From: Pseudomonadota bacterium
Lineage (GTDB): Bacteria; Pseudomonadota; Gammaproteobacteria; Steroidobacterales; Steroidobacteraceae
DNA: 64,000 nucleotides
Assembly (NCBI GenBank): GCA_021785405.1
Contig: JAJYFF010000006.1
Location: 1 to 64,000, forward strand
Reading direction: 5' to 3'
The translations under genes were made by a program, and so were the position numbers. Positions 5,399 to 60,035 of this stretch are shown here, piece after piece. The notes below the pieces were generated by a model. It was not told the DNA's origin. It saw nothing but the letters and a program-made list of their open reading frames with translations, and did not search any database. The number at the start of each line of letters is the position of its first letter. The first letter of the stretch is position 1.

Positions 5399-5430
5399 CC
5401 GGCGGGATTGCGAAAGCATCTTACCGCCGG
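5399..5430. repeat. Inverted repeat CCGGCGG/CCGCCGG at the 5' edge of the riboswitch
   Basis: A perfect 7-base inverted repeat (5399-5405 and 5424-5430) encloses a small TGC-GAAA-GCA hairpin. It sits between the mrcA start and the aptamer. It could be a hairpin of the 5' leader, an operator, or part of the outer riboswitch stem; nothing decides between these. Confidence 0.45.
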
Positions 5431-5516
5431 ATCAAGGGGCATACTCATCGAAAGGTGGGGACGCAAAGCTTCCGGTCTAAGGGCCGAACGTGCCTAGGAT
5501 AGCGGGGTTGCCGGGT
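5431..5516 (+). promoter_or_regulatory. Cyclic di-GMP-I (GEMM) riboswitch aptamer
   Basis: The conserved blocks of the GEMM-I aptamer occur in order. A hairpin CTCATC-GAAA-GGTGGG (5444-5459) carries the GNRA tetraloop at 5450-5453. Next come the junction GGACGCAAAGC (5459-5469), then CCGGTCTAA (5472-5480, tetraloop-receptor side) and TAGGATAGCGGGGTTGCCGG (5495-5514). Compared with the Vibrio cholerae Vc2 aptamer, as I recall it, the core differs at few positions. It lies on the plus strand about 285 nt before pilM, so it should sense c-di-GMP in the leader of the type IV pilus operon. The outer P1 boundaries are approximate. Whether ligand turns expression on or off cannot be read from the sequence. 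Confidence 0.88.
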
Positions 5517-5799: not shown

Positions 5800-6864
5800 G
5801 TGTGGTCGTTCGTTAAACGGTATCGCCCCCTGCTCGGGCTCGACATCACCACGTCGTCGGTGAAGTTGATCGAGTTGACGATGGCCGGCGATCAGTATCG
5901 GGTCGAGTCCTACGCGGCGGAGGCGACGCCCCACAACGCGATCAACGAAAAAGCGATCGTCGATGCGGAGGCGGTCGGCGAGGCGATTCGACGTGCGGTC
6001 AAGCGATCCGGCGCGAAGAGCCGCCTCGCGGCCGTCGCGATCAGCGGCGACGCGGCGATCACCAAACTGATCCAGATGCCGAAGAACCTCGGCGAGAGCG
6101 ACCTCGAAGCCCAGGTCGAGATGCAGGCCGACCAGTACATCCCCTTCCCGATGGAGGAGGTGAGCTACGACTTCCAGGTCGTCGGGCCCTCCGAGAAGGA
6201 CCCGGAGATGGTCGACGTGCTGCTGGTCGCGACGCGGACCGAGAACGTCGAGCAGCGGCGCGCCGCGGTGCAGGCCGCGGGTCTGACCGCGCAGCTCGTC
6301 GACGTCGAGGCGTTCGCGCTGGAAAACGCGTGCGCGCTGATGCGCCACCAGATGCCGGACGGCGGCATGGACCGCACGATCGCGGTCGTCGATTTCGGCG
6401 CGAGCAGCACCACGTTCAGCGTGCTGCGCGACCTGAAGGTCATCTATACCCGCGATTTCGCGTTCGGCGGGCAACTGCTCACCGAGGAGATCATGCGCAC
6501 CTACGGCCTCAGCATGGAAGAGGCGGGGCGGGCGAAGAAGGAGGGCGGCTTGCCGAGCAACTATCAGCCCGAGGTGCTCGATCCTTTCATCGACGACATG
6601 ACGCAGCAGGTCAGCCGTTCGCTGCAGTTCTACCTCGCTTCCGGGAGCGGCCGCGCGCAGCCCAACCAGATCCTGATCTGCGGTGGTTGCGCGAACATTC
6701 CCGGCGTCGCCGACGTGGTCTCCAGCCGCGTCGGGGTGCCGGCCGAGAAGGGCGATCCGCTCGGCGCGATGAAGGTGTCTTCGAAGGCCCGGGCGCAGGG
6801 CGTGGAGCGTGACGCGACGGCGCTGTTGACCGCGTGCGGACTCGCGTTGCGCAGCTTCGACTGA
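5800..6864 (+). CDS. pilM: Type IV pilus assembly ATPase-like protein PilM
   Basis: A 354-residue protein starting at GTG 5800, preceded by AAAAAAGGA. It is an actin/FtsA-fold protein: LLGLDITTSSVKLIEL at the N-terminus is phosphate-binding loop 1, AVVDFGASSTTFSVL near residue 190 is loop 2, and ILICGGCANIPGV near 290 is the adenosine loop. In Pseudomonas and Thermus PilM is a cytoplasmic ring that binds the N-terminal peptide of PilN and couples the inner-membrane platform to the motors. It is the first gene of pilMNOPQ and lies downstream of the c-di-GMP riboswitch. Normal length for the family. Confidence 0.95.
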   Translation: MWSFVKRYRPLLGLDITTSSVKLIELTMAGDQYRVESYAAEATPHNAINEKAIVDAEAVGEAIRRAVKRSGAKSRLAAVAISGDAAITKLIQMPKNLGESDLEAQVEMQADQYIPFPMEEVSYDFQVVGPSEKDPEMVDVLLVATRTENVEQRRAAVQAAGLTAQLVDVEAFALENACALMRHQMPDGGMDRTIAVVDFGASSTTFSVLRDLKVIYTRDFAFGGQLLTEEIMRTYGLSMEEAGRAKKEGGLPSNYQPEVLDPFIDDMTQQVSRSLQFYLASGSGRAQPNQILICGGCANIPGVADVVSSRVGVPAEKGDPLGAMKVSSKARAQGVERDATALLTACGLALRSFD

Positions 6865-53524: not shown

Positions 53525-53601
53525 GCGCCCGTAGCTCAGCTGGATAGAGTGTCGGCCTCCGAAGCCGAAGGTCGTGGGTTCGAATCCCGCCGGGCGCGCC
53601 A
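53525..53601 (+). tRNA. tRNA-Arg (anticodon CCG)
   Basis: A 77-nt cloverleaf with encoded CCA. Acceptor GCGCCCG pairs with CGGGCGC, D-stem GCTC/GAGT, anticodon stem TCGGC/GCCGA with loop CTCCGAA, T-arm GTGGG-TTCGAAT-CCCGC. The anticodon at 53559-53561 is CCG and reads the CGG arginine codon, common in this GC-rich genome. Stand-alone gene. Confidence 0.97.
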
Positions 53602-54690: not shown

Positions 54691-55551
54691 TCAGTGCTTG
54701 TGCTCGAGCGCCGCGAGGTCGCTGACCAGACTCATCAGGCGTTGCTCGCCGCCCGCGGTCCCGACGTCGGCGACGTACTTGCCATTGACGACGAACGTCG
54801 GCACGCCGGTGATGTGGTAGCGCTCCATTTCCTCGTCGGCGTGCCGTAGATCGGTTTCGACCGTGAAGGAATGGTAGGCGTTCTGGAACGCCTGCGCGGA
54901 GACGCCGTGCTTGGTCACGAAGGCGAGCTGCATTTGCTCCGACTGCGCGTCGGTGCTCCCGGTCAACGGATCGTTGTTCACGTGGATCTCGTTGAAGATC
55001 GCCGTGTGCAGCTGATCGATCTTACCGAGGCTCTGCAGCGTGTAGTACAGGCGAGCGAGTGCGCGCTGACTCGGTCCCCACATCACCGGGATGCGGTAGA
55101 ACGCGATGTACGGGGCCTTCGTCTTGAGCCAGGCCTCGACGATGGGATCGAGCGCGTAGCAGTGCGGGCACGCGTACCAGAAGAACTCGATCACCTCGAT
55201 CTTGCCGGGGGGCGCGAACGTCGGCTGCGTCGGCACGAGGCGCGTGTAGTTCACGCCTTCCTGCCACATCGACGGTCCGGAGAGCGACTCGGCCTGCGCG
55301 GTGCCGGAGACGGCCGCGACCGCCTCGTACAGCGGATTGTGCTCGCCGGTGTTGCCCTTCGCCTTTTCGACGGTTTCCGAGCGTTCGTTCAACTGCCCCA
55401 CCGTGGAGGCCGCGATCGACATCGACGGAGTCTGAGTGCTCGCGGTAGTGCCGGTCGTGTTGGCCGCGCCACCGGAGGGATGCTTCGCGCACGCGGCGAC
55501 GAGCAGGCCGAGTCCGAGCAGGCACGCGAGACGAGTCGAGCGCATCATCAT
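54691..55551 (-). CDS. dsbA: DsbA-like thiol:disulfide oxidoreductase, lipoprotein form
   Basis: A 286-residue protein with a lipobox (LLVAAC, Cys at about 21), so it should be membrane-tethered, unlike soluble E. coli DsbA. A Thr/Ser/Gly-rich linker of some 70 residues precedes the thioredoxin domain. The active site is CPHC in FFWYACPHCYALDP (about 129) and the cis-Pro is in TGVPTFVVNGKY. It oxidises cysteines of exported proteins. The start overlaps the cytochrome c4 stop by four bases; c4-dsbA next to engB is the same order as in Pseudomonas. Confidence 0.92.
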   Translation of the reverse strand: MMMRSTRLACLLGLGLLVAACAKHPSGGAANTTGTTASTQTPSMSIAASTVGQLNERSETVEKAKGNTGEHNPLYEAVAAVSGTAQAESLSGPSMWQEGVNYTRLVPTQPTFAPPGKIEVIEFFWYACPHCYALDPIVEAWLKTKAPYIAFYRIPVMWGPSQRALARLYYTLQSLGKIDQLHTAIFNEIHVNNDPLTGSTDAQSEQMQLAFVTKHGVSAQAFQNAYHSFTVETDLRHADEEMERYHITGVPTFVVNGKYVADVGTAGGEQRLMSLVSDLAALEHKH

Positions 55552-56156
55552 CGTAACCCCTTCACGTAGTCGGCCACGTCACGCATCTGGTCGGGCGTCA
55601 TGCGCTTCGAGATCGTGCGCATGATCGCGTTCGGGTCGGTCGCCCGCGCGCCGCTCGCGTAGTTCTGCAGCTGCGTGATCACGTAGGTCGCATGCTGCCC
55701 GCGCAGTGCCGGAATCTTGCCCGGCTCGTTGCCAGCGCCGGTCGGGCCATGGCAACCCATGCACGCGGGAATTTGCTGGGCGGTGTCGCCTCCCCGGTAC
55801 AGCGCTTCGCCGGCCTTCCAATATCGCGGATCGGCTTGCAGACCGGTGTTGGGCAGGCTGTCGAAGTAGGCGCCCAGATCCTCCATGTCCTGTGGCGTCA
55901 GCGCGGCGACGTTCGCCGACATGATCGGATTCTGCCGCTTGCCGCTCTTGAAGCTCTGGAGCTGATAGGTGATGTACCCCGCGCCGAGACCGGCCAAGCT
56001 CGGCCATTGCGGATTCACGCTGTTGCCGTTCGCGCCGTGGCAGGCACGGCACACGACGGCTTTGGTGGCGCCCACCTGGGCGTTGCCTGCAGAGAGGGCC
56101 GTGCCGCCGGCGACCGCGCCGGCGAGCGCCATTCCGATGATCAACAACCGCTTCAT
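55548..56156 (-). CDS. Diheme cytochrome c4
   Basis: A 202-residue periplasmic protein with signal peptide (about 1-24) and two similar class I domains, with CRACH (about residue 36) and CMGCH (about 132), each with downstream Met ligands (NPIMSANVAAL, NAIMRTISKRM). Typical c4: electron donor to terminal oxidases. Co-transcribed with dsbA. Confidence 0.95.
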   Translation of the reverse strand: MKRLLIIGMALAGAVAGGTALSAGNAQVGATKAVVCRACHGANGNSVNPQWPSLAGLGAGYITYQLQSFKSGKRQNPIMSANVAALTPQDMEDLGAYFDSLPNTGLQADPRYWKAGEALYRGGDTAQQIPACMGCHGPTGAGNEPGKIPALRGQHATYVITQLQNYASGARATDPNAIMRTISKRMTPDQMRDVADYVKGLR

Positions 56157-56241: not shown

Positions 56242-56844
56242 ATGTCGACCTACGCCAACGTGAATTTCCTGACAAGTGCGGCGACTGCCGGCCAGTTCGT
56301 CGCCGACACCGGCCGCGAGGTCGCGTTCGCAGGACGCTCCAACGCCGGCAAATCGACTGCGATCAATGCCGTGACGGGTCGGTCGCGGCTCGCGCGCGTG
56401 AGTCGGACGCCGGGCCGAACGCAGCTGATCAATTTCTTCGAGGTGGGGCCGGGCCGCCGGCTCGTCGACCTGCCAGGCTACGGCTTCGCGAAAGTACCCC
56501 ACGCGGTGCGCGATCGCTGGCATGCGTTGATGCGGGTTTACTTCGAGCGTCGCGAGTCCCTGGTCGGTCTGGTGCTGATCGTCGATGCGCGTCGCGGTCT
56601 GGGCGATCTCGATCGGGCGATGCTCGATTGGGCGCTCGGGCGCGACCGCCGCGCGCACGTGCTGCTCAGCAAAGCCGACAAGCTCGGCCGCCAGGAATCG
56701 GTGCGGGTGTTGCGTGCGACCGAGGCCGAGTGCGCCGGGACCGGCATCGGCGTGCAGCTGTTCTCGGCGCACGAGCGGCAGGGCATCGACGCGGCGCAGG
56801 ACGTGCTCGCGCAATGGCTCGAGGGCGATCGCGAACCGACGTAG
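56242..56844 (+). CDS. engB: Ribosome biogenesis GTPase EngB (YsxC/YihA)
   Basis: A 200-residue TRAFAC GTPase. G1 AGRSNAGKSTAIN (about 33-45), G2 SRTPGRTQLIN, G3 DLPGYGFAKVP, G4 LLSKADKL, G5 FSAHERQG. ATG 56242 gives MSTYANVNFLTSAA. It assists assembly of the large ribosomal subunit and is usually essential. Convergent with the sRNA and polA, as in E. coli and Pseudomonas. Confidence 0.95.
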   Translation: MSTYANVNFLTSAATAGQFVADTGREVAFAGRSNAGKSTAINAVTGRSRLARVSRTPGRTQLINFFEVGPGRRLVDLPGYGFAKVPHAVRDRWHALMRVYFERRESLVGLVLIVDARRGLGDLDRAMLDWALGRDRRAHVLLSKADKLGRQESVRVLRATEAECAGTGIGVQLFSAHERQGIDAAQDVLAQWLEGDREPT

Positions 56845-56886
56845 AAAAAAAAGCCCCGATGGTCGCGGTTAAGCAGCCACCGGGGC
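56845..56886 (-). terminator. Intrinsic terminator of the candidate sRNA
   Basis: On the minus strand GCCCCG (56886-56881) pairs with CGGGGC (56858-56853), then after one mismatch TGG pairs with CCA. Eight T follow (56852-56845), directly after the engB stop codon of the other strand. Confidence 0.92.
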
Positions 56887-56962
56887 AGACCAACCCGGCA
56901 TGGGGATGACAAACCGGGTCAACCCGCTCAGGGAGAGGAGCGGGGAGCGATTGGGTCGCTCG
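56845..56962 (-). ncRNA. Candidate envelope-stress small RNA at the Spot 42/ErsA locus
   Basis: An RNA of about 118 nt predicted between engB and polA on the polA strand. It starts near 56962 behind a sigma-E-type promoter. Hairpin 1 is GAGCGA-CCCAA-TCGCTC (56961-56945). Hairpin 2 is CCCGCTC-CTCTCCCT-GAGCGGG (56944-56923), with a pyrimidine loop complementary to Shine-Dalgarno sequences. Hairpin 3 is ACCCGG...CCGGGT (56919-56893) with an inner CAT-CCCC-ATG cap. The terminator comes last. The same position and direction are used by Spot 42 in E. coli and ErsA in Pseudomonas, the latter under AlgU control. No protein is encoded. Targets are unknown; C-rich loops suggest pairing with GGAG-type ribosome sites. 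Confidence 0.78.
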
Positions 56963-56967
56963 CAGGA

Positions 56968-56994
56968 TTAGAGGGGGCTGTCGCCGGAAAGTTC
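56968..56994 (-). promoter_or_regulatory. Sigma-E/AlgU-type (ECF) promoter of the candidate sRNA
   Basis: On the minus strand GAACTT (56994-56989), preceded by G, is followed after 16 nt by TCTAA (56972-56968). This fits the RpoE/AlgU consensus GAACTT-N16/17-TCTGA. The start falls about 6 nt later at hairpin 1. Confidence 0.75.
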
Positions 56995-57117
56995 CGAACG
57001 ATTCGACGACGCGCGATCCATTGCCATAAGCCTATGAAAGAGCGCTGATTTTAGCCACGCACCGCGTCGCAACGGGAGCGATGGCCGGCCGCGCACCGGC
57101 CGGGCGGGGTCCGGGTC

Positions 57118-59844
57118 TCAGTGTGCCTCGTCCCAGTTGCAACCCCGACCGACGTCGACCTTGAGCGGGACTCGCAGCGACCCGCCGGCGTTCGCCATCC
57201 GGCTGCGCAGTTCCCGCGTGACCGTGTCGGCCGCCTCCGTGGCGACCTCGAGCACCAGTTCGTCGTGGACCTGCATGATCAAGCGTGCGTGAATGCGTTC
57301 CCGGCGGATCCAGGCGTCGACGTCGATCATCGCGCGCTTGATCACGTCGGCCGCGGTCCCTTGCATCGGCGCATTGATCGCGCTGCGTTCCGCGTATTGC
57401 CGCTGGGCCGAATTGCTCGAGCGAATCTCGGGAAGGTAGAGACGGCGACCGAACACGGTCTCCACGTATCCCCGCTCGCGGGCGAGCGCGCGCGTCTCGT
57501 CCATGTAGCGCTTCACCCCGGGGTAACGTTCGAAGTATCGATCGACGTAGGCTTGCGCCTCCCCGCGCCCGATCCCGAGCTGGCGTGCGAGGCCGAACGC
57601 CGACATGCCGTAGATCAGCCCGAAATTGATCGCCTTGGCCGATCGGCGCTGCTCGGCGCTGACCGCATCCTCGGGCAGACCGAGGACTTCGGCCGCGGTG
57701 GCGCGATGCACGTCCCGGTCCTCCGCGAACGCGAGCAGCAGGGCCGCGTCGCCCGACAGATGCGCCATGATTCTCAATTCGATCTGCGAATAGTCCGCCG
57801 CGATCAGCACGCAGCCATCCGGTGCGATGAATGCGCGGCGGATGCGGCGGCCCTCGGGCGTGCGGATCGGGATGTTCTGCAAGTTCGGGTCGGACGAGGA
57901 CAGACGCCCGGTCGCGGCGACCGCTTGGTGATAGGACGTGTGAATCCGGCCGGTCGACGGCTCGATCTGCTCCGGCAGCTTGTCGGTGTAGGTCGACTTG
58001 AGCTTCGCGAGACCCCGGTACTCGAGGATCAGTCGCGGCAGTTCGTGCTCCAGCGCGAGCTCCTCGAGCACGTCCTCGGCCGTCGACGGCTGACCGGTCG
58101 GCGTCTTGCGCATCGGCGGGATCGCGAGCCGGCCGAACAGGATCTCCTGGAGCTGCTTCGGCGATTCGAGGTTGAACGGCGCGCCGGCCGCGAGGTGCGC
58201 GGCCTGCTGCACCTCGTGCATGCGCTCGGCGAGCTCGCCGCTCTGGGTCCGCAAGCGGTCGCGGTCGATCAACACGCCGGTGCGCTCCATTCGATAGAGC
58301 ACCTCGACGAGCGGTTGCTCGATCGTCTCGTAGAGCGTTCGCAGCGCGGGCGTTGCCTCGATGCGCGGCCACAGCTCGTGGTGCAAGCGCAGCGTCACGT
58401 CGGCGTCTTCGGCCGCGTACTCGGCCGCGCGCGCAACGTCGACTTGATTGAACTTGAGCTGCTTCGCGCCCTTGCCGGCGACGTCCTCGAAGTGGATCGT
58501 GCGGATCCCGAGGTACTTCGCCGCGACCGAGTCCATGTCGTGGCGGCTCGCGGTACTGTTGAGCACGTACGACTCGAGCATGGTGTCGAACCGCTGGCCC
58601 GCGAGCGCGATGCCGTGGTTTGCGAGCACGTGGGTGTCGTATTTCAGATGGTGTCCGAGCTTCGGGCGCGCGGGGTCCTCGAGCCACGGTCGCAGCGCCG
58701 CGAGGACCGCGTCGCGGTCGAGCTGGGCGGGCGCTCCCGCATAATCGTGCGCGAGCGGGACGTATGCGGCCTCGCCCGGGGTCACCGCGAAGGACAGGCC
58801 GACGATCCGCGCGCGCAGGTAGTTCAGGTCGTCGGTCTCGGTGTCGAAGGACGTCAGCGGCGCCGCCGCGAGCTTCGCGAGCCACGCGTCCAGCGCGGCC
58901 TGATCGGTCACCGTCTCGTAGCGCTGCGAGTCGCTCGCCGCGAGTGCGGGCGTCGCCGCCGCGGGCGCGTCCGGCGAGTCCGGCGCGGCACCCGCGTCGT
59001 CGAGCGACTTCAGCAACAACCGGAATTCCAGGCGGGTGTACAGCGCGCGCAGCGCTGCGAGGTCCGGCGGCGCCGCGCGCAGCTGCTGCGGGCCCGCGTC
59101 GATCGGCACGTCGGTTGCGATCGTCGCGAGACGGCGCGACAACTCGAGTTTCTCGAGCTCCGCGCGCAGGTTCTCGCCCACCTTGCCGGGGATCTGGGCG
59201 GCCTGTTCGACGATCGCATCGAGCGAACCGTATTGCGCCAACCATCGCGCGGCCGTCTTCGGGCCGACGCCGGAGACGCCGGGAATGTTGTCGGACGCAT
59301 CGCCGACCAGCGCGAGGTAGTCGACCATCTGTTCCGGGAGGACGTCGAACTTGGCCTTGACCCCGGCGGAATCGAGGCGCGTGCCGCTCATCGTGTTCAC
59401 GAGTTCGATACCGGGGCCGACGAGTTGCGCCATGTCCTTGTCGCCGGTGGAAATCGACACCACCAGGCCGTCCGCGACCGCGCGCTTCGCGAGCGTACCG
59501 ATCACGTCGTCGGCCTCGACCCCGGGCACCCGCAGCAGCGGCAGGCCCATCGCCGTGACGACGTCGAGGAGCGGCTGCACTTGTGCGCGCAGCGCATCGG
59601 GCATCGGCGGCCGGTGCGCCTTGTATTGCTCGAACAACTCGTCGCGGAAGGTGCGCCCGGGCGCGTCGAAGACCACCGCGATCCGGTCCGGCTGCTCGTC
59701 CTTGATCAGCTTGTTGAGCATGTTCACGACGCCGAGCACCGCGCCGGTCGGCTCGCCGCGGGAGTTCGTGAGCGGCGGCAGCGCATGGAACGCGCGATAG
59801 AGATACGAGGATCCGTCGACGAGGACGAGCTTCGGCGCGTTCAC
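57118..59844 (-). CDS. polA: DNA polymerase I
   Basis: A 908-residue enzyme; GTG 59844 gives MNAPKLVLVDGSSYLYRAFH. 5' nuclease domain (1-290; VFDAPGRTFRDELFEQYKAH, GVEADDVIGTLA, STGDKDMAQLV). 3'-5' exonuclease domain near 335-520 with an intact ExoI motif SFDTETDDL. Polymerase domain with motif A AADYSQIELRIMAHLSGD, motif B RRSAKAINFGLIYGMSAFGL and motif C MQVHDELVLEV. Full bifunctional proofreading form for repair and Okazaki-fragment processing. A GGCCGG/CCGGCC hairpin lies after the stop (57083-57101) without a T-run. Confidence 0.97.
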   Translation of the reverse strand: MNAPKLVLVDGSSYLYRAFHALPPLTNSRGEPTGAVLGVVNMLNKLIKDEQPDRIAVVFDAPGRTFRDELFEQYKAHRPPMPDALRAQVQPLLDVVTAMGLPLLRVPGVEADDVIGTLAKRAVADGLVVSISTGDKDMAQLVGPGIELVNTMSGTRLDSAGVKAKFDVLPEQMVDYLALVGDASDNIPGVSGVGPKTAARWLAQYGSLDAIVEQAAQIPGKVGENLRAELEKLELSRRLATIATDVPIDAGPQQLRAAPPDLAALRALYTRLEFRLLLKSLDDAGAAPDSPDAPAAATPALAASDSQRYETVTDQAALDAWLAKLAAAPLTSFDTETDDLNYLRARIVGLSFAVTPGEAAYVPLAHDYAGAPAQLDRDAVLAALRPWLEDPARPKLGHHLKYDTHVLANHGIALAGQRFDTMLESYVLNSTASRHDMDSVAAKYLGIRTIHFEDVAGKGAKQLKFNQVDVARAAEYAAEDADVTLRLHHELWPRIEATPALRTLYETIEQPLVEVLYRMERTGVLIDRDRLRTQSGELAERMHEVQQAAHLAAGAPFNLESPKQLQEILFGRLAIPPMRKTPTGQPSTAEDVLEELALEHELPRLILEYRGLAKLKSTYTDKLPEQIEPSTGRIHTSYHQAVAATGRLSSSDPNLQNIPIRTPEGRRIRRAFIAPDGCVLIAADYSQIELRIMAHLSGDAALLLAFAEDRDVHRATAAEVLGLPEDAVSAEQRRSAKAINFGLIYGMSAFGLARQLGIGRGEAQAYVDRYFERYPGVKRYMDETRALARERGYVETVFGRRLYLPEIRSSNSAQRQYAERSAINAPMQGTAADVIKRAMIDVDAWIRRERIHARLIMQVHDELVLEVATEAADTVTRELRSRMANAGGSLRVPLKVDVGRGCNWDEAH

Positions 59845-59870
59845 GGTGGGACCTGCGTCGCGCGGCGGCT

Positions 59871-60035
59871 TCAAGGTCCGCGCGCAGCGCTCGCCGCGGA
59901 CGCCGTCGACGCCGCGGACGCCGGCCGGGGGGCCACGACCGCGGGGCGCGCGCCGCGGCTGGGGAGCACGAGCGGCCCGCGCTGGCCGCAAGCGGTCAAG
60001 CAGGCGGCGACCAGCGCCACGCAGAGGAGCTTCAT
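59871..60035 (-). CDS. lptM: LPS translocon maturation chaperone LptM (YifL-like lipoprotein)
   Basis: A 54-residue lipoprotein. MKLLCVALVAACLTACGQRG ends in the lipobox LTAC (Cys16) directly followed by GQRGPLVLP, the signature of LptM, which helps oxidative maturation of LptD in E. coli. The rest is an Ala/Ser/Pro-rich tail. It lies between argH and polA, 26 nt from polA. Confidence 0.85.
   Translation of the reverse strand: MKLLCVALVAACLTACGQRGPLVLPSRGARPAVVAPRPASAASTASAASAARGP

Follow-up and report, generated by a model that had tools for sequence, protein, structure and literature searches.

Between the two housekeeping genes polA and engB, the analyzed window, a stretch of 64,000 nucleotides from a most likely uncultured bacterium of the family Steroidobacteraceae, contains a gene whose product is a small regulatory RNA (sRNA); this RNA is probably switched on by envelope stress and would silence mRNAs through C-rich loops. 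We consider it very probable that the gene encodes a stand-alone, sigma-E-induced and trans-acting sRNA, the C-rich loops of which mask G-rich ribosome binding sites (RBSs), and that it is one member of a family distributed over the class Gammaproteobacteria. This reading rests on the gene anatomy, the conserved structure, the promoter, the slot, the strand and an rpoE gene with a similar promoter, all taken from the sequence.

The sRNA gene covers about 117-123 nt on the minus strand (56845-56967), and is indicated by its fold, by covariation and by a match to the anti-hemB model RF02837. It lies downstream of polA (57118-59991, minus strand; range of the ORF, with synteny from tblastn) and is followed by the convergent engB/yihA (56260-56844, plus strand; range of the query, the ORF opening earlier). 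A putative cytochrome c4-like gene (55548-56156, minus strand) is next in gene order and serves as context only. The predicted fold of the 124 nt from 56967 to 56844 consists of three hairpins and then the terminator with U8, and has a free energy of -60.3 kcal/mol compared to -39.4 +/- 3.4 kcal/mol in dinucleotide shuffles (z -6.2), none of 200 shuffles being as stable. All of the following elements are on the minus strand. Hairpin 1 (GAGCGA-CCCAA-TCGCTC, 56945-56961) has a covarying stem and a variable loop, hairpin 2 (CCCGCTC-CTCTCCCT-GAGCGGG, 56923-56944) possesses the invariant CUCCCU in its loop, and hairpin 3 (56892-56920), which is backed by the fold, the alignment and covariation, carries CCCC in its head, where the predicted fold leaves three C unpaired and places the fourth in a 2-bp inner helix. 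The loops of the window RNA are thus CCCAA in the first hairpin, CUCUCCCU in the second and a third loop with UCAUCCCCA. The intrinsic terminator hairpin (56853-56886) displays compensatory changes in 8 of 13 pairs, and its U8 tract (56845-56852) abuts the engB stop codon. The 5' end of the transcript would be expected near 56961-56964. The three C-rich loops and the final hairpin with eight U that had been described in the initial annotation are all present, though only 5 of 30 family loci retain CCC in loop 1. A dual function with a small ORF was rejected, as no ORF of at least 8 codons ending inside the RNA is common to the 30 sequences; the window RNA has a 10-codon ATG ORF, as do the three RNAs most closely related to it. 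A plasmid collection searched with the feature gave no match.

The promoter read in the initial annotation as GAACTT, 16 nt and TCTAA is exact: GGAACTT-N16-TCTAA is located on the minus strand at 56995-56968, with a sigma-E (RpoE)-type -35 element GGAACTT (56989-56995) and, 16 nt past it, a -10 element TCTAA (56968-56972). The string occurs once in the genome (2.92 Mb, 133 contigs), and the backward control likewise occurs once, so that the string alone is near chance genome-wide and its significance derives from position and conservation rather than from rarity. Of the 30 family loci, 26 retain GGAACTT and 27 retain TCTAA, counts that include two loci with irregular promoters (L027 and L030). 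The column statistics were taken from the other 28, in which the spacing between the two elements is constant and most spacer positions vary, the exception being a conserved CCCCA immediately before TCTAA. A -10 element of the form TC[TA] at comparable spacing was seen across class members too.

One RpoE was found over the NCBIfam cut-off in this genome (302.7 bits), with eight other sigma-factor-like matches below it, and GAACTT-N16-TCTAT is present upstream of the rpoE ORF. A sigma-E promoter ahead of rpoE is the classic autoregulated arrangement, and supports, without proving, that the RpoE of this genome reads the sRNA promoter. Induction of the sRNA by RpoE would be expected from the promoter and by analogy to ErsA of Pseudomonas, which is reported to depend strictly on sigma-22 and to respond to envelope stress (PMC7565897). 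A housekeeping sRNA with C-rich loops, transcribed mainly from other promoters and only in part by sigma-E, as perhaps anti-hemB and sX13 are, appears improbable to us. It would agree with the two sX13 loci and six of 12 further hemB-side loci described below, where no sigma-E promoter stands above background, and with ncS04, which is unchanged in all conditions tabulated in PMC5688073; in the window's own family, however, conservation of the upstream region is highest in the sigma-E elements, and a scanner for sigma-70 promoters and short-loop terminators gave no site in 56500-57300.

Conservation of the sRNA gene was followed within the family of the window's genome. At the DNA level, 32 of 60 genomes gave a match, own included, and a set of 30 loci was fetched, composed of the own locus and 29 relatives from the same family. 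EngB is convergent after the RNA in 29 of them, and PolA lies ahead on the same strand in 28. Alignment A1 of these loci reveals CUCCCU of loop 2 in 30/30, CCCC of loop 3 in 25/30 and CCC of loop 1 in 5/30. The RNAalifold structure on A1 has 97.9% of its cells paired, and the compensatory changes on which the initial annotation had staked its proposal were found in 17 of 35 pairs, changed on both sides. Five measures of covariation were compared with 500 shuffles, none of which reaches the observed value on a single measure; sliding the structure gives 1-5 such pairs versus 17 for the real one. A strong terminator between the convergent polA and engB, with extra hairpins that have no function of their own, would account for the last hairpin and its U8, which make a good terminator abutting the engB stop; this is nevertheless very unlikely given that hairpins 1-3 covary around an invariant loop 2, that a conserved sigma-E-type promoter lies upstream, and that related RNAs adjoin hemB without polA and occur in tandem copies.

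In L025-L028 and L030, which represent other genera within the family, loop 3 is of the GAGACCUGU type in place of AUCCCCAU, with loop 2 staying invariant, which suggests a lineage-specific second target set. A second sRNA copy away from polA and engB was also observed in a same-genus genome (G018:C48:27557-27669 and L070).

A covariance model, R1, was built from A1 and contains neither neighbor genes nor the promoter, so that both serve as separate confirmations of its matches. R1 matches (E up to 0.001) were found in 115 of 369 genomes drawn over Gammaproteobacteria, own included, which is a lower bound; the own-locus score of 136.7 bits is high by construction. About 0.4 chance matches would be expected in 369 genomes if the E-values were exact, but they are only rough, and the specificity of R1 rests on them together with the neighbors and promoters. 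The following counts are based on the best hit per genome in all 114 non-own genomes, leaving extra tandem hits out. PolA or EngB is encoded within 1.5-2 kb in 98 of the 114, a count that rises to 105 when cytochrome c4 is admitted as a third neighbor. Of the 80 loci having EngB, 78 show it downstream in convergent orientation, and of the 68 having PolA, 65 show it upstream and on the strand of the RNA. Nine hits (L152, L156, L158, L166, L196, L203, L204, L210 and L241), the first three of them cut by contig ends, have no PolA, EngB, HemB or cytochrome c4 nearby. Three others (L228, L229 and L232) are inverted relative to PolA/EngB, possibly as inverted genes or palindromic matches. A sigma-E-type promoter scoring at least 8 of 9 is present in 94/114, mostly at one offset and with a 16-nt spacer, compared to 2-5 of 109-112 in nine displaced windows. 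The class members possess 2.77 CCC-bearing apical loops per RNA versus 0.50 in shuffles, which at the class level were mononucleotide shuffles, and CUCCCU is present in 98/114. The comparative evidence from the 30 loci and the class members supports the sRNA gene, its sigma-E-type control, its C-rich loops and the polA-engB slot, and the sRNA of the window apparently belongs to a class-wide family.

A miss at the class level does not denote absence, because G050 was empty in the class search yet gave 58.1 bits at its engB region; among eight genomes examined at engB, three had clear members (58-69 bits, G050 included), one a weak match (10.7 bits) and four none. In a draw over the phylum, R1 matched 22 of 398 genomes, class members included, and 21 of these are from the same class, own included. 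Twelve of the 22 were classed as further loci (L313-L321 and L324-L326), three (G000, G165 and G130) had been counted before, and the seven others stay outside these counts. The only match outside the class (G473:C1:7673140-7673249, 26.2 bits, E 9.3e-4) may be due to chance. Four tandem sRNA copies were observed near polA and engB in two genomes (L141/L271 in G228:C33 and L143 in G335:C8), and two copies in several others, e.g. G164, G378, G206 and G394.

The strand is indicated by the same data. The pair cells of A1 contain 73 G-U versus 4 A-C when read on the polA strand, which points to the polA strand as the transcribed one; a U-run of at least 4 ends the RNA in 110/114 class members in sense and in 1/114 in antisense. 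GGA in hairpin loops is the hallmark of CsrA-binding sRNAs, and the reverse complements of the conserved loops (AGGGAG and GGGGAU) would place it there, e.g. in the engB 3' UTR, but a functional opposite strand of the CsrA/RsmA type, which could also draw on the three inverted class hits and on the sense strand folding more stably in only 73/114 (the weak point of the case against it), is scarcely credible and was rejected on this G-U asymmetry and the U-runs, the promoter too pointing along the polA strand.

Judged by Rfam models, anti-hemB (RF02837) is the closest known relative of the window sRNA. The window RNA is below the cut-off in an Rfam scan at gathering threshold, and the match appears only in a permissive scan, with 47.5 bits (E 3.5e-10) over the full length at 56946-56845, just under the curated cut-off of 49.5. 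Hairpin 2 is nearly identical in the two RNAs (anti-hemB CCCCGCU..CUCCCUGAGCGGG), and they display the same order of CUCCCU-loop hairpin, middle hairpin and terminator. However, the Rfam model (81 positions) starts only at hairpin 2, the window RNA adjoins polA and not a divergent hemB, and it has the sigma-E-type promoter, which is missing from six of 12 further class loci. RF02837 corresponds to Burkholderia RNA 7 and to ncS04 of B. cenocepacia, and a divergent hemB neighbor is the source of the name anti-hemB. With the RF02837 model, 89 of 185 class genomes give a match (the window's genome among them), nine of them over the cut-off; weak hits alone prove little, since matches below the cut-off were also found in 3 of 14 control genomes. 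Among the nine, six adjoin PolA and/or EngB, one has only cytochrome c4 as a neighbor and two have none of these. The proposal of a new family member in the initial annotation is supported; the closeness to anti-hemB and the spread over the class had been missed there.

Among the 12 further class loci that the draw over the phylum contributed, ten have hemB divergent upstream, and five of these ten have engB convergent downstream; anti-hemB-type RNAs thus hold the engB side of the slot, with hemB replacing polA. The sigma-E-type promoter is present in six of the 12 (8-9 of 9) and not in the other six (6-7 of 9), all of which are beside hemB and belong to families f122 and f202, presumably Comamonadaceae and Burkholderiaceae. 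These six loci fit the lack of change of ncS04/anti-hemB of B. cenocepacia in every condition of the qPCR table in PMC5688073. In f122 (L317, L318, L319, L324, L325 and L166), the RNA was observed near hemB and/or genes that look by eye like hemJ or vanZ, with no engB nearby and no sigma-E promoter above background, an apparent relocation with a change of control.

A likeness to sX13 had been noted at first from its C-rich loops, and the covariance models point the same way: sX13 is a distant relative, weaker than anti-hemB. It is encoded just downstream of polA (PMC3771888), as the window RNA is, and its anatomy is similar, with stable hairpins, C-rich loops and little single strand. sX13 has three apical C-rich loops; C-rich loops are present in the window RNA, the first not being conserved. 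The sX13 model RF02232 (Xanthomonadaceae) gave 20.8 bits (E 0.076) on the window, not reaching its cut-off of 50. Two loci over that cut-off (116.7 and 103.2 bits) are beside PolA, and R1 aligns to them end to end with 22.9 and 23.3 bits. Of eight hits of the sX13 model under the cut-off, four are on R1 places (best 48.3 bits, G228), a fifth (G195) coincides with a local R1 match (25.7 bits) that adjoins PolA and EngB, and the remaining ones (G181, G074 and G122) are off R1 places. Unlike the window RNA, both sX13 loci are without a sigma-E promoter above background (6 and 7 of 9), and their stem and loop sequences are different. Mutants of sX13 loops and target sites, as presented in PMC3771888, demonstrate that the C-rich loops act as repressors of mRNAs in which G-rich motifs lie close to the start codon, and that this repression works without Hfq; for ncS04, Hfq binding is cited in PMC5688073.

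ErsA and Spot 42 had both been named as positional counterparts. ErsA has in common with the window RNA the polA-engB intergenic slot, the polA strand and a predicted sigma-E/AlgU-type promoter. A total of 24 loci were taken from one family, presumably Pseudomonadaceae as marked by PrrF, and were reached through PolA, engB of G220 not being adjacent to polA. A GAAC..-N-TC sigma-E-type promoter and an RNA downstream of polA are present in 20 of the 24 (19 by script and L294 by eye; L291, L302, L303 and L307 are without); these RNAs, taken to be ErsA by position and promoter, mostly have a C-rich terminator loop by eye. They differ from the window RNA in a long U-rich stretch. R1 did not recover them in these loci, giving three matches at E up to 10 with the best at 14.5 bits (E 0.016), so the counterpart holds in slot and promoter type but not in sequence or structure homology. 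For Spot 42, the likeness extends to position and orientation between polA and yihA/engB in E. coli only. A search of the spf region of E. coli with R1 gave no match at E up to 10, the Spot 42 covariance model RF00021 matched none of 185 class genomes, the window's included, and upstream of spf the highest sigma-E-type score (7 of 9) is at background level. Spot 42 is reported as CRP-regulated (PMC3295665).

We infer transcription, sigma-E dependence, loop-RBS pairing and the identity of targets, and the proposed mechanism would proceed as follows. Envelope stress would release RpoE, which would transcribe the gene from GGAACTT-N16-TCTAA until the intrinsic terminator stops the transcript at the engB stop codon. 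The resulting sRNA would be a row of stable hairpins presenting the C-rich loops CUCCCU and CCCC, and their pairing with G-rich RBSs would lower translation, for which the sX13 experiments give a precedent. The invariant CUCCCU resembles the anti-Shine-Dalgarno sequence, and masking of G-rich RBSs is therefore the likeliest action of the loops. Lineage forms of the class-wide family would include anti-hemB and sX13. We put forward only tentatively, as a possible but rather doubtful history, that an ancestral sigma-E sRNA stood beside engB in Gammaproteobacteria, former Betaproteobacteria included, as a core envelope-stress riboregulator; sX13, anti-hemB and ErsA would be the forms it took in separate lineages, with sigma-E control lost in sX13 and in many anti-hemB RNAs, and Spot 42 would be its most derived descendant or a replacement, rewired to CRP.

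Two other RNA features were observed in the window. A c-di-GMP-I riboswitch (5428-5515, plus strand, 71.7 bits) is located about 285 nt ahead of an ORF named pilM-like by eye (5800-6864, plus strand), and may place a type IV pilus operon under c-di-GMP control. A tRNA gene was found at 53525-53598 (plus strand, 69.5 bits).

The RNA of the window is of a type already known, and the larger result is the class-wide, sigma-E-linked family. In the open-licence PMC literature consulted, nothing joins sX13, anti-hemB and ErsA. The 2013 sX13 paper names Spot 42 and alpha-r7 as RNAs located at polA and leaves the wider question open (PMC3771888). From sequence, the answer is yes: R1 matches 115 of 369 genomes, the majority of these matches adjoin polA or engB, and the majority share a single promoter type. 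The sequence models connect anti-hemB to this family, and sX13 more loosely, and ErsA is connected through its slot and promoter. Findings made in one lineage may therefore be transferable to the others, and a class-wide sigma-E sRNA becomes directly testable.
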